Source: Oscillospiraceae bacterium (lineage in GTDB: Bacteria > Bacillota > Clostridia > Saccharofermentanales > Saccharofermentanaceae). Taken from it: a stretch of 13,787 nucleotides of DNA. This document shows positions 277 to 11,567 of this stretch, one piece after another. Under the pieces are notes generated by a model that did no database searches, had not been told where the DNA came from, and saw nothing but the letters and a program-made list of their open reading frames with translations. Position 1 is the first letter of the stretch. Each line of letters begins with the position of its first letter. Location of the stretch: NCBI GenBank assembly GCA_902795955.1, contig CADBNJ010000043.1:1-13787 (forward strand). Reading direction: 5' to 3'. The position numbers and the translations under genes are program-made.

Positions 277-1221
277 TCATTTGACGTCAAAACTGCCAAG
301 ATTCCTGATACTCATGGAACTGTTCCCTGTTACACGTGCGAATGTATCACCGGATATATAGGAACATTCGACAAGGAAGCTGTACTGACCGAGCTGTGTC
401 TTAAGAGGTCTGTCATGAACAGCGATCAGGGTTATTCCCTGCTTCTTGAGATCTGCGGCAAGCACCGCCATATCATCTGCCGTCCCCCCGGCAATGAATG
501 CTGTCCTGCCGGAACCGTATATACCTGCTTCACCGTTGGTCAGCACATAAAAACGCGTGACATTATTGCCGTTGTTCTGTATAGCGGGCGCCAGGATCTC
601 GAGACCGTAAACATCGGCACAGCCGGCGGAGGCTATGGCGGCACAGCTCCTGTCCTGCTCTTCGCTTACCCTGCGGGCGCCCTCAGCAGTGCTGGATACT
701 TCTATAACCTCCGCTTCAGGGAGATTAACAGAGAGCCACTCCTTTCCCTGTGCAATGCCCTGCTTGTGAGAATAGACCTTCCTGATATCGGACAGGACCG
801 TTCCGGGAAGAACGAGAAGATTCTGATTTATAGGGAGTTCAACTTCTCCCACTACGGAGACGCTCCTGTTAGAGATCAATGTATCAATATAATCTGTGAC
901 AGCGCCTCCGATCGTGTTCTCGACAGGGATCACTGCATAATTGCTGTCACCTTCGGCAAGAGCTGTCACGGCATCCGGAACTGTCTCAAAAGGAACAAGT
1001 TCAGGACCTTCACCGAAGAATCTCTCACAGGCTTCCTGCGTATACGTTCCGCGCGGACCGAGATAGCTTACTACGGCACCATCACGTTCTATTGCAGATG
1101 GCGCAGGTGCGACAGCCTCCCTGCTCTCTCCGCACGAGATAACAGATAATGCCAGTATAATTGCGAGAACGACTGATGCTGTCTTCCTTACCACCGGCAG
1201 ATTACCATCCTTATACCGCAT
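277..1221 (-). CDS. pheA: lipoprotein-type (exported) prephenate dehydratase
   Basis: PheA-family prephenate dehydratase of 314 residues; the family converts prephenate to phenylpyruvate in phenylalanine synthesis. All family blocks are visible: YLGPRGTYTQEA (53-64), IPVENTIGG (98-106), VVGEVELPINQNLL (123-136), VYSHKQGIAQ (149-158), SSTAEGA (176-182) and NNVTRF (219-224) with the catalytic Thr. An ACT regulatory domain follows (about 247-314), where the usual ESRP is HDRP (269-272). What is odd is the front: a basic start, a hydrophobic run (about 15-27) and a lipobox VISC ending at Cys30, then a Ser/Ala/Pro linker, so the enzyme should be tethered outside the membrane. The ATG at 1221 overlaps the upstream stop by 11 bp; a TTG at 1242 would add seven residues. 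It is the last gene of the Rnf-like run. The family call is firm; export is inferred from the signal peptide. Confidence 0.88.
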   Translation of the reverse strand: MRYKDGNLPVVRKTASVVLAIILALSVISCGESREAVAPAPSAIERDGAVVSYLGPRGTYTQEACERFFGEGPELVPFETVPDAVTALAEGDSNYAVIPVENTIGGAVTDYIDTLISNRSVSVVGEVELPINQNLLVLPGTVLSDIRKVYSHKQGIAQGKEWLSVNLPEAEVIEVSSTAEGARRVSEEQDRSCAAIASAGCADVYGLEILAPAIQNNGNNVTRFYVLTNGEAGIYGSGRTAFIAGGTADDMAVLAADLKKQGITLIAVHDRPLKTQLGQYSFLVECSYISGDTFARVTGNSSMSIRNLGSFDVK

Positions 1222-2326
1222 TATACAGACAGCATTCCACAAGCATGATGAGCAATGCGAACATGGTCATCATGAAGGGTGTTCCGTCTATATATTTGCT
1301 CCTCGATACGAAGATCTGACGGCGCCTTATAACAGCGAGCAGAGCACTTCCGATTATATCCGTACCGTTCAGGAGAAGGAAAGCATATACTATTTTGGAG
1401 ATGGACATATCCTCACCGTACCTGATGTAGAACATGCTGATGAGAGCTGCGGCAATGAATGCTTCATAAATGAAATGCTTTGTTCCGAAGCTCGATGTGT
1501 GATCCTTACCCGTGCGCGGGATAATATATACAAAAGGTAATGCGATGAGCATTGAAGCCGGAAGCATCATATGATTTTTGAAGTCACCTGCAACAAAATG
1601 ATCCAGCGCGTAGAGAGAAGCAAAGAGGAATGATGTAGTCATTATGAACTTTGCTTTCGCAATGATGAATATCCTGGTCTGGCTGAATTCGGCAACAGGG
1701 ATATCCCAGAATTCGGTAAGGTGCTTTGATGTGAAGAAGAAGCGGCTTCCCGACGACTTTGATATGATGATCGAGGTAAGTATCAGGAAAGATACTGATA
1801 TGATTATCCCGATAAAGAGGAACCGCGACTCGAACAGGAGACTGACATAGTAACCTGTCAGGGAAGCGCAGACCGCAAAGAATAAAGGAACTGTTATCTC
1901 CTTGAAGACATGAGGTCTGCTGCCGCTGTCATCATCGGTACCGACGGCCGACAGTGACACAAGGCCGAGCGAGAATACCGACAGGCTCGACGCCAGATAC
2001 ACGGAATCCAGATAGTACCCGGCCGCACATTCCGGAAGCGTCATGACAACAGCAACGACAGGTGCGATGACCGGAGTCTTAACGAACCTGAATGTCAGGC
2101 ACCATATAAGTGTCAGGGCAACAGCACAGCCTACCGGGATGAAGATGTTAAGGTCCGTCATCAGCGCCATTCCAAGCCCTATAACAGCGAAAGCCAGGAA
2201 CAAAGATGCCCGGGTAGTCATATACCTTGGAGGGCTCACATGCATTACATGGGGCTTATGTCCGTATAACCCCGCACCGCCTTCTGCATCAAATGGCAGA
2301 TCCTTTATTCTCTGTTCTTCTATCAT
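1211..2326 (-). CDS. unrecognised polytopic membrane protein (about 11 TM) of the Rnf-like operon
   Basis: A 371-residue protein with a soluble N-terminus of about 35 residues and roughly eleven hydrophobic segments (about 40-57, 59-80, 85-106, 112-128, 143-163, 168-189, 219-240, 252-270, 286-302, 309-334 and 349-369). I do not recognise the family. Its N-terminal quarter resembles an RnfD start: HVSPPRYMTTR (29-39), VGCAVAL (65-71; RnfD here has VGCAVAF) and MTLPECAAGYY (95-105), where RnfD proteins have a TLPP-like motif. It lacks the NPA and [ST]GxT flavin motifs. It occupies the place where RnfE and RnfA would be expected, and its size would also fit a fused, highly diverged RnfE-RnfA pair. 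Several membrane cysteines are present (67, 76, 100, 153, 365, 366). The start lies 2 bp after the rnfG stop with no clear ribosome site, suggesting translational coupling. Confidence 0.8.
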   Translation of the reverse strand: MIEEQRIKDLPFDAEGGAGLYGHKPHVMHVSPPRYMTTRASLFLAFAVIGLGMALMTDLNIFIPVGCAVALTLIWCLTFRFVKTPVIAPVVAVVMTLPECAAGYYLDSVYLASSLSVFSLGLVSLSAVGTDDDSGSRPHVFKEITVPLFFAVCASLTGYYVSLLFESRFLFIGIIISVSFLILTSIIISKSSGSRFFFTSKHLTEFWDIPVAEFSQTRIFIIAKAKFIMTTSFLFASLYALDHFVAGDFKNHMMLPASMLIALPFVYIIPRTGKDHTSSFGTKHFIYEAFIAAALISMFYIRYGEDMSISKIVYAFLLLNGTDIIGSALLAVIRRRQIFVSRSKYIDGTPFMMTMFALLIMLVECCLYNAV

Positions 2327-2328
2327 CT

Positions 2329-3708
2329 TTATACCAGCCAGTTAAGATAATCTTTCATGAATTTGTAGCATGTATTGATACAGGTCAATACGAGCTGCGA
2401 ACCCGGGCCGGCGCCCGGCACAGGATCTACATAACTTGCGATCTCGCTCATCGGAAGGTCGTCAACACTGTCTATAAGAGAATTGTCAGACTGACTGTCC
2501 GGATCGATGACACCGTCTTCTCCGCCGTCAACAAAGCCGCCTCCGTCACCGGCGTCGGGCTTGGTGTCATTATCAGGAACCACGTCATCAGGCTTGTCCT
2601 TATCCCCGCTTCCCTGCTGATCCTTATCATCGCCGGAGGACTTGTAACGCTCCGCCAGATCATGTATGGACCTGAGCTCAACAACTACTCCGTCGCTGTT
2701 CTTCACCTCGAAAGGAGCAAGATTTTTATCAAAAGATACAACTATGAATCCATCCTTGTTCATCAGATGAAGCGACTCTGCCGAGCCTCTCATCAGCTTG
2801 CCGAGCACTACATCAAAATCAGCGTAATAATCCGCCTTGCGGTACCCTGAATGAGCATATTCAATACACTCCTCCGACAGCCTGATGAACTGCCTTATAT
2901 CGCATGTCACCCCGTTGACAACTGCCGTGGTTCCGTCGGACTTCATGTTGAGCAGCTTGGGATCCTGAACCTCGATCAGGGCGTGGCAGATGTTATAAGA
3001 CTGTGTTGCCCAGTCAAGACCCGATACGCTGTATGCACCTGACAGTGATGCCTTGCTCCTTATCTCCGTTGTGGGATCCATGTTCACGGCATCCCAGCGG
3101 ACTTTGGTTATTCTGCCTGCCTCGACCTCTATCTCCACATAATCAATGTATCCGGACGAATCCTTGGAGACTGACTGGGCATAATACACACCGTCATGAA
3201 GTCCGTTGATGACAACCTCCTTGCGGGGTGCCGGAGAATCGTCCACTGATGTATTGCTCGTGAATGCCACAGGGATCCGCTTATCTGCAAGCGACTCTTT
3301 GAGCGCCGTGAACTGCCCGTCAGATATCGGAACCGGTATGTCCTCATCATTGATACGCTTGATGCCTGACAGAGTTGCCGATTCGTAATCTATACCGACA
3401 AGAACATGCATCTGCTGTCCGTACTCATTCGCACATTTGACATCGACAATATAGCACTTGGGAACATTGTCGCGGTCATACCCTATATATACTTCTTTGA
3501 TATCCTTATAGTTGTCGAGTATAGGCGGCGTCAGTTTCTCATATCTGTCACACCCGCTCACATCCGAGAACTTGCTGATATACAGCACCTGCTCCCTCTC
3601 AGCCTTGCGGAAGGAGGACAAATAGATACCGCCCGTTACGGCAAAAATGCTTACTATGAATATCACCACTATCTCAGTGATCACTCTGCGGAGGCTTGAA
3701 CCGTTCAT
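2329..3708 (-). CDS. rnfG: RnfG-like FMN-binding protein with two FMN_bind-like regions and an acidic tail
   Basis: A 459-residue membrane-anchored extracytoplasmic flavoprotein. RnfG/NqrC proteins carry covalently bound FMN and are usually about 200 residues, so this one is over twice the usual size. One membrane helix (about 11-32) precedes a first FMN_bind-like region (about 70-150, with VLVGIDYESATLSGIKRI) that has no acceptor motif. A second region (about 172-285) resembles the FMN_bind domains of PplA-type lipoproteins, with DGVYYA, ITKVRWDAVN and NGVT (265-268), where T268 fits the flavin-accepting Thr of the usual SGAT. Residues 356-436 are an acidic Asp/Gly/Pro-rich linker, followed by a short amphipathic end with two Cys (443, 447). 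The start overlaps the rnfD stop (ATGA) and has a GGAGGTGA site at 3719-3726. The flavin attachment is inferred. Confidence 0.85.
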   Translation of the reverse strand: MNGSSLRRVITEIVVIFIVSIFAVTGGIYLSSFRKAEREQVLYISKFSDVSGCDRYEKLTPPILDNYKDIKEVYIGYDRDNVPKCYIVDVKCANEYGQQMHVLVGIDYESATLSGIKRINDEDIPVPISDGQFTALKESLADKRIPVAFTSNTSVDDSPAPRKEVVINGLHDGVYYAQSVSKDSSGYIDYVEIEVEAGRITKVRWDAVNMDPTTEIRSKASLSGAYSVSGLDWATQSYNICHALIEVQDPKLLNMKSDGTTAVVNGVTCDIRQFIRLSEECIEYAHSGYRKADYYADFDVVLGKLMRGSAESLHLMNKDGFIVVSFDKNLAPFEVKNSDGVVVELRSIHDLAERYKSSGDDKDQQGSGDKDKPDDVVPDNDTKPDAGDGGGFVDGGEDGVIDPDSQSDNSLIDSVDDLPMSEIASYVDPVPGAGPGSQLVLTCINTCYKFMKDYLNWLV

Positions 3709-4697
3709 TTGGTTATCTTCACCTCCCTCTGATTGAACTTGCCCCTTCTGGCAATCGTTTTTGTGAAGAAGTCTATCTCAAAGGACATAAAATTAGTCGC
3801 CATTACAGGTGCCAACACTGCACACATATCAGATACTCTTCCATAGAGTACGGCTGTCATGACCGCGCAGATCACACCCGCGAACACACCGCCTAAGATC
3901 CTCGACGGCATCGTCGTGAAGTCTCCGAGCATATAGACGGCGATGAACAGCGCTCCCGAAGACAGAAGGAAGATGCCGAGAGATTTGAACCCTTCGGAAT
4001 TAAGTGACAGGCCTTCCCTCATAAACGGATACAGAAGCGCCAGCATAACAAGGTACGAAGACGGCGCATACACTCTTACCGTTCCTTTGACAAGGAGATA
4101 TATCCACGCGCACAGAATGAGCAGGGCACAACCCGTTCCGATATAACCCGCATAATTACCGGTGATTATCTCCACGATATGGAGACTCTGGGGATCATCT
4201 CCCCTGATGACTCCGTCCGTCCTGCCGGTAAGCGACATTACGTCGAACCATGATGTCAGCGGCTCCTTGAAGCTGGACATCTGTGAAGGGAAGATCATCT
4301 CAACGCACAATCTCGCCACACACGCCGGATTGAGGATATTATTTCCCGCCCCTCCGAAAAACTGCTTGACCACGAACGAGCCGAACAATACTCCCGTCAA
4401 AGCGACTACAAGCGAAGTTCCCGGCGGCAGCAGCAACGCATATATGACACCTGCCTCGATCGAGCTGAAATCAGTATAATTACGGCTTATCCCGTCCCTT
4501 CTTACCATCCTTCCGAAAGCATTATCCAGCAGCATGAATGCAACTGCGCACCCCACGATCAGCGTTATCGCGGATATCCCGTAGAATACAAAGCCAGCCG
4601 CAATACACGGCATTAGCGCGGCAATATGCGTCAGATAGATATACGGCGCTGTCTTCTCAGTATGTATAAATGGCGAGAGATATCTGATATTGCTCAT
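3705..4697 (-). CDS. rnfD: RnfD-like membrane flavoprotein subunit
   Basis: A 330-residue multi-pass protein of the RnfD/NqrB family, which carries electrons through the membrane using covalently bound FMN. Family marks are LSPFIHTEKTAP at the N-terminus (7-18), LLLPPGTS (88-95), the FGGAGNNILNPAC motif (114-126), and the C-terminal ATNFMSFEIDFF (300-311), matching the AILLMNxxxPLID end of RnfD proteins. About nine to ten membrane segments are present. The flavin motif, normally DxxSGATPL, reads DVMSLTGRTDG (152-162), so T160 in TGRT is the likely acceptor, with Arg replacing the usual Ala. The gene overlaps rnfC (ATGA, 4694-4697) and has a GGGGGGAAG ribosome site inside rnfC. It is coupled on both sides within the operon. 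Confidence 0.9.
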   Translation of the reverse strand: MSNIRYLSPFIHTEKTAPYIYLTHIAALMPCIAAGFVFYGISAITLIVGCAVAFMLLDNAFGRMVRRDGISRNYTDFSSIEAGVIYALLLPPGTSLVVALTGVLFGSFVVKQFFGGAGNNILNPACVARLCVEMIFPSQMSSFKEPLTSWFDVMSLTGRTDGVIRGDDPQSLHIVEIITGNYAGYIGTGCALLILCAWIYLLVKGTVRVYAPSSYLVMLALLYPFMREGLSLNSEGFKSLGIFLLSSGALFIAVYMLGDFTTMPSRILGGVFAGVICAVMTAVLYGRVSDMCAVLAPVMATNFMSFEIDFFTKTIARRGKFNQREVKITK

Positions 4698-6199
4698 ACT
4701 ATCTTCCCCCCGTCGAAAGGCAGTACGATTGCATCGGGATCCTCCGAAGTCTCCTCATCCGGGATATCCGATACATAATCCTCAAGGAGAGACAGATCAC
4801 CTATCCCCTCTATGTCGTACTTGAACCTCGTATTATGCAGAAGTGAATTCTCACCGATTATCTTGCCCTCCGCCGCAAACTTGGCAATGCGCTGCGTAAG
4901 CCTTATTCCCGCAGGGCAGATATACGAACAGATCCCGCAGGATATGCAAGTTCTGGCGCCTTCCTCTTCAGCCTTTTTGGGCATTCCCTGCTTGAGCATC
5001 TCATATATGATATGAGGCGACAGTCCCATCGGGCAGTTCTGGGCACAGAGGCCGCAGTGGATGCACGGCGTCCTGGGTGTCTCCTGCCTGCGTATGACGG
5101 TTATTGCATTCGTCAGCTTGATGATAGGCGTATTCTCCGGGTCTGTTATCGCAATACCCGTAAGTGCGTTGCCCCATACCAGAGGTCCCGCCGTATCGCC
5201 GCCCCTGCCGCCGTCAGGCAGCACCTCGGATACCGGCGTTCCAATGGGAACGATTATGTTGTGTCCGCCGGTGAGATCCCCGGTTACACTTACTACCCTG
5301 TTCATCAGCGGGATATTCTCAGACAATGCCTCCCAGCATGCACACATCGTGGAACAGTTGAACAGTACGGCTCCGCATCTCTTCTCAAGTGTCTCGTCAG
5401 GTCCTAAGACAACATCATAGAGAGCCTTCGCCACGAGCCTGTAGTAGCCCTGGGGGAATCTCTCCCTGAACAGCCTGATCTCAAATTCCAGATCGGAGAA
5501 ATCTTCTCTGGCATTCTCAATGGCATTGCTTATCACTTCTATTATCATCTTCCTGCGCTCAGACAAAAGGAAAACGACCTTGCCTGCACCGCACGCTCGC
5601 GCACAGGCGCCTGCTCCGTTGACCACATATCCCGGGTATTCGGACATTACCATCAGGTCAGATGTCGCGTAAGGCTCGCTCTGAAGTCCGTTGACCAGGA
5701 GTTCTCTTACGCCGCAGTTCCTTGCGCGGTCGATCTTGGCCGCGGTAGGAATGCCTTCACCGCCGAGTCCGCATATTCCCGCGTTGCTGATTATTCCCAT
5801 GACATCCTTGGAATCGAGCTTCATGCTTTCGCGATGACGCATGGAATTGACGCGCTGCATCTTCATGTCATTAACGATCGTTATGGCCGGACATTCTATT
5901 CCGTTGGGCATCCTGATGTTGCTGATCGAAGTGACCCTGCCGGAGATCCCGCTGTGCACCGCCAGCGAGAACTTGCCCTTGGGCGGCATGGCAACACACT
6001 GTCCCACCTTCACTTCGTCGCCGGCATTGACGACGGGGATGGCGCTGACACCGTAATGCTGCTTGCACGGAAGGATTATCCTCGACGGATTGACGCGCTC
6101 GAGCAAAATCTCCTTAATAAAAGATGAACGCTTTGAAAAATCCAAAGCGTTATCTGCCAAAAAGCCTTTGTGATATGTATACTTCCTGCCGCGGGCCAT
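4694..6199 (-). CDS. rnfC: RnfC-like electron-input subunit, two [4Fe-4S] clusters
   Basis: A 501-residue cytoplasmic/peripheral subunit of the Rnf family, which accepts or donates electrons with NAD(H) through FMN and iron-sulfur clusters. The N-terminal barrel-sandwich region (about 40-110) precedes a NuoF-like flavin/nucleotide fold with GLGGEGIPT (144-152) and NGLQSEPYATSD (170-181); the usual family form is ECEPY, so the Glu-Cys pair is Gln-Ser here. RFPQG (247-251) matches the YPQG motif. Two ferredoxin motifs follow: C379, C382, C385, C389 and C418, C421, C424, C428, each followed by Pro. An Asp/Glu-rich tail ends the protein. The ATG at 6199 is 16 bp after the rpoD stop, and no good ribosome site is visible there. 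Subunit identity is firm; the redox partner is not shown by sequence. Confidence 0.92.
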   Translation of the reverse strand: MARGRKYTYHKGFLADNALDFSKRSSFIKEILLERVNPSRIILPCKQHYGVSAIPVVNAGDEVKVGQCVAMPPKGKFSLAVHSGISGRVTSISNIRMPNGIECPAITIVNDMKMQRVNSMRHRESMKLDSKDVMGIISNAGICGLGGEGIPTAAKIDRARNCGVRELLVNGLQSEPYATSDLMVMSEYPGYVVNGAGACARACGAGKVVFLLSERRKMIIEVISNAIENAREDFSDLEFEIRLFRERFPQGYYRLVAKALYDVVLGPDETLEKRCGAVLFNCSTMCACWEALSENIPLMNRVVSVTGDLTGGHNIIVPIGTPVSEVLPDGGRGGDTAGPLVWGNALTGIAITDPENTPIIKLTNAITVIRRQETPRTPCIHCGLCAQNCPMGLSPHIIYEMLKQGMPKKAEEEGARTCISCGICSYICPAGIRLTQRIAKFAAEGKIIGENSLLHNTRFKYDIEGIGDLSLLEDYVSDIPDEETSEDPDAIVLPFDGGKIV

Positions 6200-6215: not shown

Positions 6216-7277
6216 TTAATCCGTGTACCCCTCGAGCCTCTTTGAACTTGATGCTCTCGAGAGCTTCCTGATGGCCTTTGCCTCGATCTGACGGATTCTC
6301 TCTCTCGTAACGCCGAGCTTCTGTCCAACCTGCTCGAGAGTCATGGGAACGCCGTCCTTAAGTCCGAATCTGTGTTCGATAACCTTGCGCTCACGGTCTG
6401 TAAGTGTTCCCAGAGCCTTCATGAGGTCCTCCTTGAGAAGTGTCCTTGCAACCTCCTCCTCAGGAGCTGCGAGCTCATCGTTGGAGATGAAGTCAACCAG
6501 GTGGCTGTCTTCCTCCTCACCGACAGGCTTATCGATGGAGATGGGATCCTGAGAGATCTTCTGGATCTCTCTTATCTTTGCAGGAGTCATTCCGGCAGCC
6601 TCGCCGCCCATCTTCTCAGCAAGTTCCTCTATGGTAGGCTCTCTTCCGAGGTCCTGGACCAGCTGACGCTGTATTCTTGTAAGCTTGTTGATCGTCTCGA
6701 CCATGTGAACGGGGATCCTGATCGTCCTTGCCTGGTCGGCGATGGCTCTCGTGATAGCCTGTCTGATCCACCATGTTGCATATGTGGAGAACTTGAAGCC
6801 CTTCTGATAATCGAACTTGTCTACAGCCTTGATAAGACCGATATTGCCCTCCTGAATAAGGTCGAGCAGAGACAGTCCTCTGTTCATGTATTTCTTCGCG
6901 ATAGATACAACAAGTCTCAGGTTGGATTCGATGAGCTTGTTCTTGGCTTCCTCGTCGCCTTCAGCCATCCTGGAAGCAAGCTCTTTCTCCTCGTCTGCCT
7001 TGAGAAGTTCGATCTTACCGATCTCCTTGAGATACATTCTGACGGAGTCATCTACCGGTATCTCGTCCTCCCTTCCGTCAAGGACAAGAGCGTCCGGGAA
7101 CAGATCTTCGATCTTGTATCCGGACTTCTCCAGCTCGTTCGTGATCCTGTCCATGTCATCAGGCATGATGTCGTAATCATTGGAGATCGCATCCAAATCG
7201 CTTGATGAGAGGACCTTATTGTTCCTCTCCGCCTTCTGCTTCATCTGTTCAATAGCTAAATTAAGATCTGTTGACAT
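6216..7277 (-). CDS. rpoD: RNA polymerase primary sigma factor RpoD/SigA
   Basis: A 353-residue sigma-70 factor that directs RNA polymerase to housekeeping promoters. A short region 1.1-like part (about 7-60) is followed by region 1.2 (76-108), region 2 with the invariant core-binding and -10 melting block (about 115-185, including [14 protein letters not shown] and [12 protein letters not shown]), region 3 (about 190-265) and region 4 with the -35-reading helix-turn-helix (about 312-335, [15 protein letters not shown]). The length is normal for Clostridia, and the C-terminus RLEGYTD is typical. The ATG has a GGGGAG site 5 bp upstream. In many Bacillota this gene follows dnaG; here it lies 12 bp after a zinc-ribbon membrane protein and 16 bp before rnfC, so it probably shares a transcript with the Rnf-like genes. 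Confidence 0.98.
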
Positions 7278-7289
7278 ATAATCTCCCCG

Positions 7290-8087
7290 TTACTTTGACG
7301 CTGAAGTTGACGCTGTAGTTGCTTCTGTCGCTGCCGATGTCTGTACAGGGGCATCCTCAGTAAATACAACATTGATAACTCCGCCTTCTCCTGTCACCTC
7401 ATAGATTCCGTTGTTGACGAAGATCTCCATTGTGACACCCTTCATCTTATCCGATGTGATCCCTGCCTTCTCCGCACGGAGGTCAGTATACTTCTCAAAC
7501 AGTTGCTTGCACTTATCTTCTGTGATCTGTGAAGGAACGGCGAGCTTAACGTACTGGCATGACTGCCCGTAGATCATATACCCCTTCCCGTTGCCGGACT
7601 CATCAACGGATGTGTCGACGCTGGCAATCTCCTTGAGAACGGAAATCCCGTCTGAGATCTCATTCTTAAGCTTCTTCCTCGAATTGTAGAACGGGAAAGC
7701 AACCGCAATGATGATGATGATCAGCAAAGCCGTCGCACCGATAAGTATAGCCTTAAGCTTCGCCGGTGCCTTGACATCATTGGGCGAGATCTCAAAATCA
7801 GACGGCTTGATAGACCCGGAATCTTCCTTGGCCTTCATCGCCCTGTCACGCGCCACAGCGGACTCGATCATGTCGGGGTTCACCTTGGTAGCGTAATAAT
7901 GTGTGGATTCCGAGGACTCAGCTATCTCCTCATTCGCGAAAGTGTAATCATCCGGATTCTCAAGTATCTGAACCGCCTCTGCACCCGGAAAAATGCAATG
8001 GCAAAAGATGCATTCGCAATTCTCATTCCTGTCATCGAAGATGATCAGAGAACCGCAGTTCTTGCACATACCTTGCTTTGTAGCCAT
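7290..8087 (-). CDS. zinc-ribbon, single-TM protein of unknown function upstream of rpoD
   Basis: A 265-residue protein that I cannot assign to a named family. The N-terminus is a zinc-ribbon-like cysteine cluster: CKNC (8-11) and CECIFCHC (24-31), giving CxxC...CxxC pairs. A charged, probably cytoplasmic stretch (about 40-110) leads to one strong membrane helix (about 111-134). An extracellular domain of about 105 residues (about 141-245) and a Ser/Thr/Ala-rich C-terminal tail follow. The layout suggests a protein facing both sides of the membrane, with the metal site inside. It is the first gene after the promoter at 8232-8259, with a leader of about 135 nt, and is followed by rpoD after 12 bp. 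The start ATG has a modest GGCAGGA element upstream. Confidence 0.8.
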   Translation of the reverse strand: MATKQGMCKNCGSLIIFDDRNENCECIFCHCIFPGAEAVQILENPDDYTFANEEIAESSESTHYYATKVNPDMIESAVARDRAMKAKEDSGSIKPSDFEISPNDVKAPAKLKAILIGATALLIIIIIAVAFPFYNSRKKLKNEISDGISVLKEIASVDTSVDESGNGKGYMIYGQSCQYVKLAVPSQITEDKCKQLFEKYTDLRAEKAGITSDKMKGVTMEIFVNNGIYEVTGEGGVINVVFTEDAPVQTSAATEATTASTSASK

Positions 8088-8384: not shown

Positions 8385-8424
8385 GGCGGCCCGTGGTCCG
8401 GGCGGCCGGTGGTCCGGGCGGCCG
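8385..8424. repeat. GC-rich 16-bp tandem repeat, 2.5 copies
   Basis: GGCGGCCCGTGGTCCG (8385-8400) is followed by GGCGGCCGGTGGTCCG (8401-8416), which differs at one base, and by a half copy GGCGGCCG (8417-8424). Base composition is far more GC-rich than the surroundings. It directly precedes the 62-bp hairpin array after a 16-bp gap. Slippage expansion is likely; no function can be assigned. Confidence 0.8.
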
Positions 8425-8440
8425 TTCTCTATTTTGAACT

Positions 8441-8688
8441 GTATCCGTAAAACCGCACGGGAAGCCTGTTTGTGCATAAAAACGGATACATCCGGGGGTA
8501 ATGTATCCGTAAATCCGCACGGGAAGCCGGTCAGAGCATAAAAACGGATACATCCGGGGGTAATGTCTCTACATTTTGTAAAAAAGAACATACCGGTGCA
8601 GGAATGTAGAGACAATCGGGGTCAATGTCTCTACATTTTGTAAAAAAGAACATTCCGGTGCAGGAAGTTAGAGACATTCATGTCACCT
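8441..8688. repeat. four hairpin units of exactly 62 bp, two stem types
   Basis: Units start at 8441, 8503, 8565 and 8627. Units 1 and 2 begin GTATCCGT and carry the complement ACGGATAC at offset 41-48 (8482-8489 and 8544-8551). Units 3 and 4 begin GTCTCTACATT; unit 3 carries AATGTAGAGAC at offset 38-48 (8603-8613), and unit 4 has a partly eroded arm (8665-8675). In units 1-3 the hairpin is 49 nt and a 13-nt spacer follows, containing a CGGGG core and ending in AAT. Period and geometry are kept while stem sequence differs, and both arms of a stem change together. The short reading frames across the array break because 62 is not a multiple of 3, so it is treated as non-coding. Confidence 0.85.
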
Positions 8689-9908: not shown

Positions 9909-11567
9909 TCACTTACCCGTATAATCCTCGAGTCTTACTCTCTGACCGTCTTCCAGCGCTTTCTCGCTTCTTATTACTATCATTCCCTGATCAAGACCGG
10001 AACCCGATAATGCCGATACCGCACCGTCAGTCGCAAGCACTTCAACATCCACTCGTCTGACAGTGTAGCGGTTGCCAAAAGGCGATCTTACCTCGTCGAT
10101 CAGATATACAAAAGTACCTGCGTTATCCTCGTTAACTGCACTCGATGCGATGCAGCAGTCGTAATCGGAATTGGAACTTCCCGGAGACACTGTGACGCTC
10201 TCTCCCGGCAGTATGTACTCAGCCGACAGCGAACACTTCACGAGCCTGTTCTCGCGGGGCGCCTCGGGATCGGGCTTGATCGACAGGATCTCGCACGAAT
10301 CGAGCCAGTACGTATCTGAAGACAGCTGCATCCCAGGCGTCATGCGCCTCTCCACGAGTTCCGTCGGAAAGCAGAAGGTCGCAGTATACTTTGTATCCAG
10401 CGGAACAACGATCAGTACAACACTGTTCTCTTCCATCGTATCACCGTCGCCGGCAGTCAATGCGTATACACGTCCGCCGGCAGGTGCCGTTATTACCGTC
10501 TTGGCATAATTGTCCTCGAGTTCTTTTATCTGTGTCTCAAGCTTATTGATCTTTATTTTACGGTCTGTTGCCGCATCACGTGCCCTGTCACGGGCTATCC
10601 CTTCGTTGATCCTGGTGTTGTCCAGAGTTCTGCGGGCAGACGACAGTGCTGCCTCGGCCGATTCCACGGTCACTTTGGCGGAGGATACGGAAGGCACGCT
10701 CTCCGCTGCTGCGATGGCTGCTTCGGCCTCCTGAATTGCCGCTTTGCAGTCAGACAGTTCCGAAGACAGCTTCTCGAGCCTGTCCTGTGCCGCACCGAGC
10801 TGACTCTTAAGTTCCCTGACAGACTTCTCCAGAAGGTCTATCTCTGCCTTGACTGCCTCGATCTGTTCTTCATACGGATTAACCTCTTCCGGATATGACG
10901 GAACGAATCCGGCCGCCTTCTCCTCCAGATCCTTCAATTCTTCCTTCTTTATCTCGAGCTCACTATTCGCGGTATCAATACTCTTATTCAGATCCTCAAC
11001 AGTATCAGACGCAGAAGTCACTTCCGCCGTAAGCTCCACCGTCTTGGGACTGTTCTTGTCTATTATCTTATTTGCCCTGTTGATCGTATCTTTCTTGTTC
11101 CTGGCTTCGTTCAATGATTCGCGCGCATCCTTAAGAGATTCCTGTGCCTGGGACACACCGGCACGAAGCGTTGCGTAATCGGTATCCGACGGCGTCCTTG
11201 AGGCATAGTCGTCTTCCCTCTTGATTTCCGTCAGCTGCTGCCGCAATGAATCGAGTTCGCTTGTATCAGTTACGGGGAACAGCGTCATTAATACATCGCC
11301 CTGCTTCACCTCATCGTAGTCGGAGACAGACACGTGATCTATCCTTCGGCCAGCTATACTCATCACCTTATAACTCGTCTCAGGTTCAACTACAGCCGAC
11401 GCATTATTGGTCAGCGACAGGTTCGCTCTTGACGCTCTCTTCCCTGCAACCTTGGGGATAAAAAGGTTCATTATCGTATTCGAGAAGAACGTCAGCAGCA
11501 GAAGTCCTGCCACGAACCCTATTATCAACTTTGTCACCCATTTGCGGTTCTTTACTTTATCACTCAT
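9909..11567 (-). CDS. HlyD/MacA-type membrane fusion (adaptor) protein
   Basis: A 552-residue adaptor protein that would link an inner-membrane transporter to the cell exterior. One N-terminal membrane helix (about 14-37) leads to the first half of a lipoyl-like domain (about 64-98, with VKQGDVLMTLFPV). A long helical coiled coil rich in Glu/Lys/Ala follows (about 102-350, broken near 220-232 by a Pro-containing segment). The second lipoyl half is at about 354-390 (ITAPAGGRVYALTAGDGDTM), and then beta-barrel-like domains run to the end. Gram-positive members, such as YknX-like proteins, normally partner a MacB-type permease and ATPase; here the partner is the MacB-core-like gene 1 bp downstream. 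A strong AGGAGG site at 11573-11578 overlaps the stop codon of the upstream permease gene. Confidence 0.88.
   Translation of the reverse strand: MSDKVKNRKWVTKLIIGFVAGLLLLTFFSNTIMNLFIPKVAGKRASRANLSLTNNASAVVEPETSYKVMSIAGRRIDHVSVSDYDEVKQGDVLMTLFPVTDTSELDSLRQQLTEIKREDDYASRTPSDTDYATLRAGVSQAQESLKDARESLNEARNKKDTINRANKIIDKNSPKTVELTAEVTSASDTVEDLNKSIDTANSELEIKKEELKDLEEKAAGFVPSYPEEVNPYEEQIEAVKAEIDLLEKSVRELKSQLGAAQDRLEKLSSELSDCKAAIQEAEAAIAAAESVPSVSSAKVTVESAEAALSSARRTLDNTRINEGIARDRARDAATDRKIKINKLETQIKELEDNYAKTVITAPAGGRVYALTAGDGDTMEENSVVLIVVPLDTKYTATFCFPTELVERRMTPGMQLSSDTYWLDSCEILSIKPDPEAPRENRLVKCSLSAEYILPGESVTVSPGSSNSDYDCCIASSAVNEDNAGTFVYLIDEVRSPFGNRYTVRRVDVEVLATDGAVSALSGSGLDQGMIVIRSEKALEDGQRVRLEDYTGK

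Follow-up and report, generated by a model that had tools for sequence, protein, structure and literature searches.

The window analysed here, 13,787 nucleotides of contig CADBNJ010000043.1 from an Oscillospiraceae bacterium (assembly GCA_902795955.1), carries on its minus strand, at 277..1221, a gene for a prephenate dehydratase (PDT) of the PheA type with a C-terminal ACT-fold domain, whose product, judging from its predicted signal, is very probably an exported lipoprotein. The original prediction on this DNA had seen in the gene the catalytic blocks of the PheA family, an intact ACT domain and a lipoprotein signal, and had placed it at the end of an Rnf-like operon for flavin electron transfer.

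The gene and its product

The gene is read from an ATG at 1221 as a protein of 314 amino acids, with a GTG at 1194 as an alternative start. The catalytic blocks are indeed present: the PDT catalytic domain PF00800 (residues 51-229; 535..1071, minus strand) matches at 204.1 bits against a cut-off of 25.2 (E 2.1e-60) and carries E101, N102, S151, Q158 and T222-R223-F224, the threonine of the TRF motif (Thr222) thus standing together with the other putative catalytic positions. The NCBIfam prephenate dehydratase model NF008865 scores 208.7 bits over residues 50-294, below its cut-off of 219. In the Pfam scan at E <= 1 PDT was the only match; no solute-binding-protein family and no ACT domain was found at that level, and the scan found no chorismate mutase domain. 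The ACT domain holds as a predicted fold, beta-alpha-beta-beta-alpha-beta over about residues 239-312 (286..507, minus strand), but not in its Phe-binding motifs, since HDRP (residues 269-272) stands where ESRP is expected and the glycine of GALV is gone.

The lipoprotein signal was also borne out. It spans 1132..1221 on the minus strand, with a charged n-region, a helix predicted at residues 12-28 (at low confidence there, with block means of 67-70) and the lipobox VISC, whose Cys30 (codon 1132-1134) is the predicted lipidated residue; the 30 sequences in an alignment of homologs (A1) all have this cysteine. The true start may be GTG 1194 (residue 10) rather than ATG 1221, because a near-identical sister genome has an ATG at the matching codon, preceded by an AAGGATGG; with that start the signal remains, its cysteine becoming Cys21 in a protein of 305 residues. 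A start downstream of Cys30 is very unlikely because the signal is conserved across the family. That a wrongly chosen start merely makes a cytoplasmic PheA appear exported has next to no probability, for although the choice between the two starts is uncertain, the signal is kept with either, its cysteine is invariant among the homologs, and eight loci with isolate-style titles carry such a gene.

We considered the exported PDT as the cell's sole PheA, an explanation rejected by the paralogs in carrier genomes. Among 50 carrier genomes searched, taken from those behind the 80 loci described below, 44 gave at least two PDT matches, and a cytoplasmic-type copy was found by reading in all 44; the six with a single match all have metagenome-bin titles. 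The second, cytoplasmic pheA for which the original prediction had recommended a search was not found in the window's own genome, which is 68.85% complete, but the sister genome (G031, the same as G059; locus L031), with the same operon, encodes the exported PDT plus a cytoplasmic PheA with a chorismate mutase domain. At L137, a Treponema locus with an exported PDT, the other PDT lies in a 636-amino-acid frame whose N-terminus looks DAHP-synthase-like by eye.

The family of predicted exported proteins

A protein search returned 778 relatives at 0.55 to 1.75 times the query length, of which the best 120 were analysed with our own rule combining hydropathy and lipobox. A lipobox was called in 113 of these, six more were hydrophobic at the N-terminus without a called lipobox, and one (P0082) was signal-less, whereas none of 65 cytoplasmic PDTs was positive (a control set that left out L163, an exported copy, as well as L004 and L005). 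We refer to the signal-bearing proteins as exported PDTs. When one genome per species was scanned, 109 stretches encoding such proteins were obtained and 80 loci were kept, assigned in their records to Bacillota (75; among them Oscillospiraceae 24, Lachnospiraceae 19 and Erysipelotrichaceae 7), Spirochaetota (2) and Actinomycetota (1), with two unplaced, one of them titled Candidatus Riflebacteria. A ruminant gut site or reindeer is named in 18 of the 80 titles, and many of the loci are RUG records, which we take to be rumen genomes. Eight have strain-style titles and were taken as isolates (L042, L043, L054, L062, L079, L082, L090 and L095).

In a tree of 102 proteins all 54 exported sequences fall on one side of a single branch (SH-aLRT 100, length 1.45), and a second tree, to which the 19 nearest cytoplasmic PDTs were added, gave the same grouping. 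Both were quick trees without bootstrap, with hand-chosen exported rows (48 of the 190 exported proteins among the matches listed, five of the 80 loci, and the window); CAN_P0206 and CAN_P0214 were dropped from both, and SEC_P0178, SEC_P0163 and CAN_L180 also from the second. With a profile of the family, among 398 genomes drawn evenly from the phylum (five best candidates scored in each), only the window's own protein exceeded 208 bits, at 506, the next best being a cytoplasmic-type PDT at 207.6 bits. Of 115 genomes in the taxonomic family of the window, eight have an exported PDT, all of them in the window's genus and all scoring at least 467 bits.

Across 38 genomes the exported copies share a median identity of 65% (53-97%) and the cytoplasmic PheA copies 37% (26-99%), in a set found with patterns derived from A1, which favours close exported relatives. 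The exported copy was the more similar in 668 of 703 genome pairs, and the two identities were uncorrelated (Spearman 0.016). Higher identity without correlation suggests that the gene has moved by horizontal transfer, and the exported PDTs are probably a single clade with one origin, spread in this way. Flanking DNA (400-500 bases, non-fused loci) is shared in only 10 upstream and 3 downstream pairs. Neither of the vehicles looked for was seen: 20 viral pattern matches included no relative, and plasmids gave no match at E 1e-40. In three Oribacterium loci (L090, L092 and L102, the last two from one assembly) the DNA upstream of the gene is similar over 149-244 bases, and at L105 three tRNA genes (2737-3608) start about 90 bases downstream of it (1728-2648), a possible mark of an insertion site. 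An in-frame TAG interrupts the gene at L039 (near 9920-10906) and L262 (near 1419-2403), in genomes G067 and G541, so the gene can decay; G067 was left out of the identity comparison, leaving the 38 genomes.

Residues were compared with those of Escherichia coli PheA, fetched from K-12. The positions E159, N160, S208, Q215, T278, R279 and F280 (E. coli numbering) are identical in all 54 exported proteins, the window's included; we take N160, S208, Q215 and T278 to be catalytic or substrate-binding. The motifs GALV and ESRP, presumably the Phe-binding feedback motifs of the PheA ACT domain, have fared differently: the glycine of GALV is kept in one exported protein (and lost in 53) as against 47 of 48 canonical ones, and in place of ESRP the exported proteins have HDRP or HERP (His in 54/54, then Asp in 51 and Glu in 3), whereas ESRP is retained in all 19 of the nearest cytoplasmic relatives. 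That the catalytic set is strictly kept while the feedback motifs are lost is consistent with export of an enzyme no longer tied to biosynthesis. Cytoplasmic PheA (PF00800; NF008865) thus shares with the exported PDTs the order of PDT and ACT domains, the putative catalytic residues and the fold, but the exported proteins differ in having a signal and lipobox, in lacking a chorismate mutase domain and in forming a separate clade on a long stem.

Fusion partners and predicted role

The original prediction had foreseen neither this single-clade, probably horizontally spread family nor the fusions of its members to other exported enzymes. Long fused proteins occur in 6 of the 80 loci, as His_Phos_2-PDT (4), GH3-PDT (1; L079, strain MC2017) and acetolactate decarboxylase-PDT (1). 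A search started from a His_Phos_2 fusion, over proteins of about 385-1223 residues, gave 149 matches, of which the best 120 were considered; rows P0121 to P0190 (n=70) were assigned to the exported clade from their scores, with E at most 2e-58 in these rows and 1e-36 in the next. Among these matches another domain is present in 52 of the 70, according to a precomputed Pfam column, with the domains of ten proteins checked afresh: HAD in 23 (two of them also with a VanX-type M15 domain), His_Phos_2 in 12, acetolactate decarboxylase in 4, GH3 in 3, PTP-like in 2 and a DHH-DHHA2 pyrophosphatase in 2, with VanY, MsrA-MsrB, alpha/beta hydrolase, rhodanese, dockerin, and a helix-turn-helix (HTH) with a receiver found once each. 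These counts are of clusters, not of independent fusion events. HAD (presumably phosphatase), His_Phos_2, PTP-like or pyrophosphatase domains make up 39 of the 52. The PDT domain stands either first or last, and a lipobox or hydrophobic N-terminus was called by our rule in 62 of the 70, the other eight including apparent truncations. Family II Mn-type inorganic pyrophosphatases are normally cytoplasmic; in P0153 and P0158 such a domain is followed by a C-terminal PDT, and P0153 has an N-terminal hydrophobic segment.

We consider it probable, though well short of assured, that the window's protein and its relatives are exported, feedback-desensitised enzymes of the PheA type acting on prephenate-like compounds that lysed cells may release; export, activity, substrate and a role in salvage are all predicted from sequence. 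The clade would probably go back to a single cytoplasmic enzyme with PDT and ACT domains but no chorismate mutase domain, which gained a signal peptide, retained the catalytic residues and lost the Phe-feedback motif; the clade would then have passed between rumen and gut bacteria that are unrelated to each other and become a module repeatedly joined to further exported enzymes. Most likely, prephenate-like (or arogenate-like) compounds would be aromatised outside the cell to phenylpyruvate (or Phe). All partners appear to be exported, and most would act on small molecules or wall pieces of lysed cells, which favours processing of prephenate-like intermediates outside the cell. The most plausible source of substrate would be metabolites from lysed neighbours, a view that fits the partners, whose likely targets are phosphorylated metabolites, pyrophosphate, acetolactate and wall fragments set free in the same way. 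More tentatively, and as a possibility that we rate well below the enzymatic role itself, the PDT may be a mobile extracellular dehydratase module of PheA descent, shared by rumen and gut anaerobes and attached to phosphatases, phytases, pyrophosphatase, acetolactate decarboxylase and wall enzymes, for the joint salvage, or lysis-sensing, of labile intermediates from dying neighbours.

Several observations weigh against a prephenate-processing role. The accessible text of PMC8192741 gives E159 and E232 of E. coli PheA as catalytic or substrate-binding positions and E232 as important for substrate binding; the E232 position is Ser176 in the window and Glu in only 1 of 54 exported proteins, as it is in 7 of 48 canonical ones. 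Clade-specific changes adjoin catalytic positions (e.g., SHKQG versus SHPQP in E. coli), so another substrate is possible. No source of extracellular prephenate was found, and the phrase "extracellular prephenate" had no literature match. An exported chorismate mutase was tried as a partner and rejected: the model CM_mono2 (TIGR01806), which we take to describe exported chorismate mutases, exceeded its cut-off in none of the 50 carrier genomes (weaker matches in 38, mostly frames of 360-419 amino acids), and six short chorismate mutase-like frames show no signal by eye. The partner domains could be any exported carrier, and one long protein, the HTH protein P0151, has no signal or transmembrane segment; we take it as a chimera because its PDT end is almost the same as the one in the pyrophosphatase fusions. 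The non-Bacillota carriers are single metagenome bins, possibly binning errors.

The strongest rival, which we nonetheless judge unlikely, is that the exported PDT serves mainly as a ligand-binding module, with its PBP-type cleft and ACT domain sensing aromatic compounds or placing or oligomerising partner enzymes. Against this stand the identity of the putative catalytic residues in all 54 proteins, the lack of a long fusion, and hence usually of a passenger, in 74 of the 80 loci, and the absence from the 80 loci of any receptor or transporter recurrently adjacent to the gene. Nor is there a conserved neighbour of another kind, the largest neighbour cluster occurring in 5 of the 80 loci (many with short flanks), or a riboswitch or T-box at Rfam gathering scores near the gene in the window or in the 20 loci scanned.

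A far less probable alternative is an exported amidase-like enzyme resembling GqqA of Komagataeibacter, a PDT-family protein reported to be an acylase of N-acyl-homoserine lactones; the exported PDT would hydrolyse these compounds and so interfere with neighbours' signalling. GqqA shares the PDT-ACT fold, but its identity in structural alignment is 19-23%, and other PDTs match equally well. According to the accessible part of the GqqA paper, just two of four catalytic positions of the E. coli enzyme are retained in GqqA, whereas the exported clade keeps the tested set and is the more PDT-like in its residues; the words "signal peptide" are absent from the paper's main text.

Returning to an exported dehydratase, the same reaction is carried out by an exported enzyme in Pseudomonas aeruginosa, the cyclohexadienyl dehydratase (CDT) PheC; for the exported PDTs that role is a prediction. 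The accessible text of PMC10520331 describes PheC as having two alpha/beta subdomains with a cleft, a feature in common with PDT, and as having probably evolved from solute-binding proteins. The original prediction had called the two folds unrelated, which is inaccurate, as PMC8192741 (accessible text) counts the PDT catalytic domain, too, among PBP-type domains. Derived from the PheA lineage and not from solute-binding proteins, the exported PDTs would have become exported dehydratases independently of PheC. Of published systems, the nearest are the exported fusions of chorismate mutase and CDT reported in J Biol Chem in 2023, which, in the accessible text, occur in nine proteobacterial species with cytoplasmic counterparts in the same genomes, in both fusion orders and with no known role; the reason for exporting shikimate enzymes is there called "still an enigma", and sensing of lysed bacteria is proposed (PMC10520331). 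The exported PDTs likewise combine exported shikimate-pathway enzymes with cytoplasmic copies and both fusion orders, but, as far as that text goes, they differ in being PheA-type and not CDT (PheC-type), in having no chorismate mutase and other partners, and in being mainly from Bacillota (75/80 loci). Among the literature matches listed (open-licence PMC text), no title or abstract dealt with an exported PheA-type PDT.

The family would add another lineage of probable exported dehydratases, one that descends from PheA, occurs mainly in Bacillota and has fusion partners that hint at its job. If its members are active, phenylalanine-pathway chemistry outside the cell is more widespread than described, and a textbook reaction of the cell's interior may also take place outside it in some rumen and gut bacteria; the eight isolate-style loci make this testable in isolates.

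The Rnf-like cluster and other features of the window

As one possible role, the original prediction had offered a repurposed ligand-binding protein that feeds the Rnf-like redox chain. The PDT gene is the last of such a cluster in the window and in the near-identical sister, overlapping the preceding open reading frame (ORF) by 11 bases if it starts at ATG 1221 or lying 16 bases after it if it starts at GTG 1194, but beside no other carrier examined: among the 80 fetched loci (flanks of up to 10 kb, shorter at contig ends) only the sister's has the cluster next to the gene, as does none of the six other carriers in the window's taxonomic family (flanks of about 1.5 kb). Each of the 35 genomes of the genus that were examined, the window's (G000) included, encodes an RnfD homolog (31-100% identical), with or without an exported PDT. 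We therefore reject an Rnf partnership; that the exported PDT is a functional part of the electron-transfer chain is largely refuted and extremely improbable, and the link looks incidental.

The neighbours all lie on the minus strand and outside the exported PDT family: a membrane protein of the Rnf cluster without a Pfam match (1211..2326), then the remaining cluster (2329..6199), comprising a weakly PplA/FMN-binding-like protein (2329-3708), RnfD (3705-4697) and RnfC (4694-6199). The protein at 2329-3708, which occupies the place of RnfG, contains an Asp-rich stretch; it matches no Pfam family and resembles the PplA electron-transfer flavoprotein only weakly (21.8 bits, cut-off 325). Directly upstream of the cluster, at 6216-7277, lies a gene for a vegetative RpoD-type sigma factor of 353 amino acids, preceded by an ORF of 265 amino acids that matches no family and has CxxC pairs close to the N-terminus. 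The window also has two repeat regions. At 1-198, immediately downstream of the PDT gene, a 65-base unit with an inverted repeat occurs three times; at 8385-8676, between the ORF at 7290-8087 and a MacB-like gene, there are two tandem duplications of 62 bases along with an array of 16 bases.
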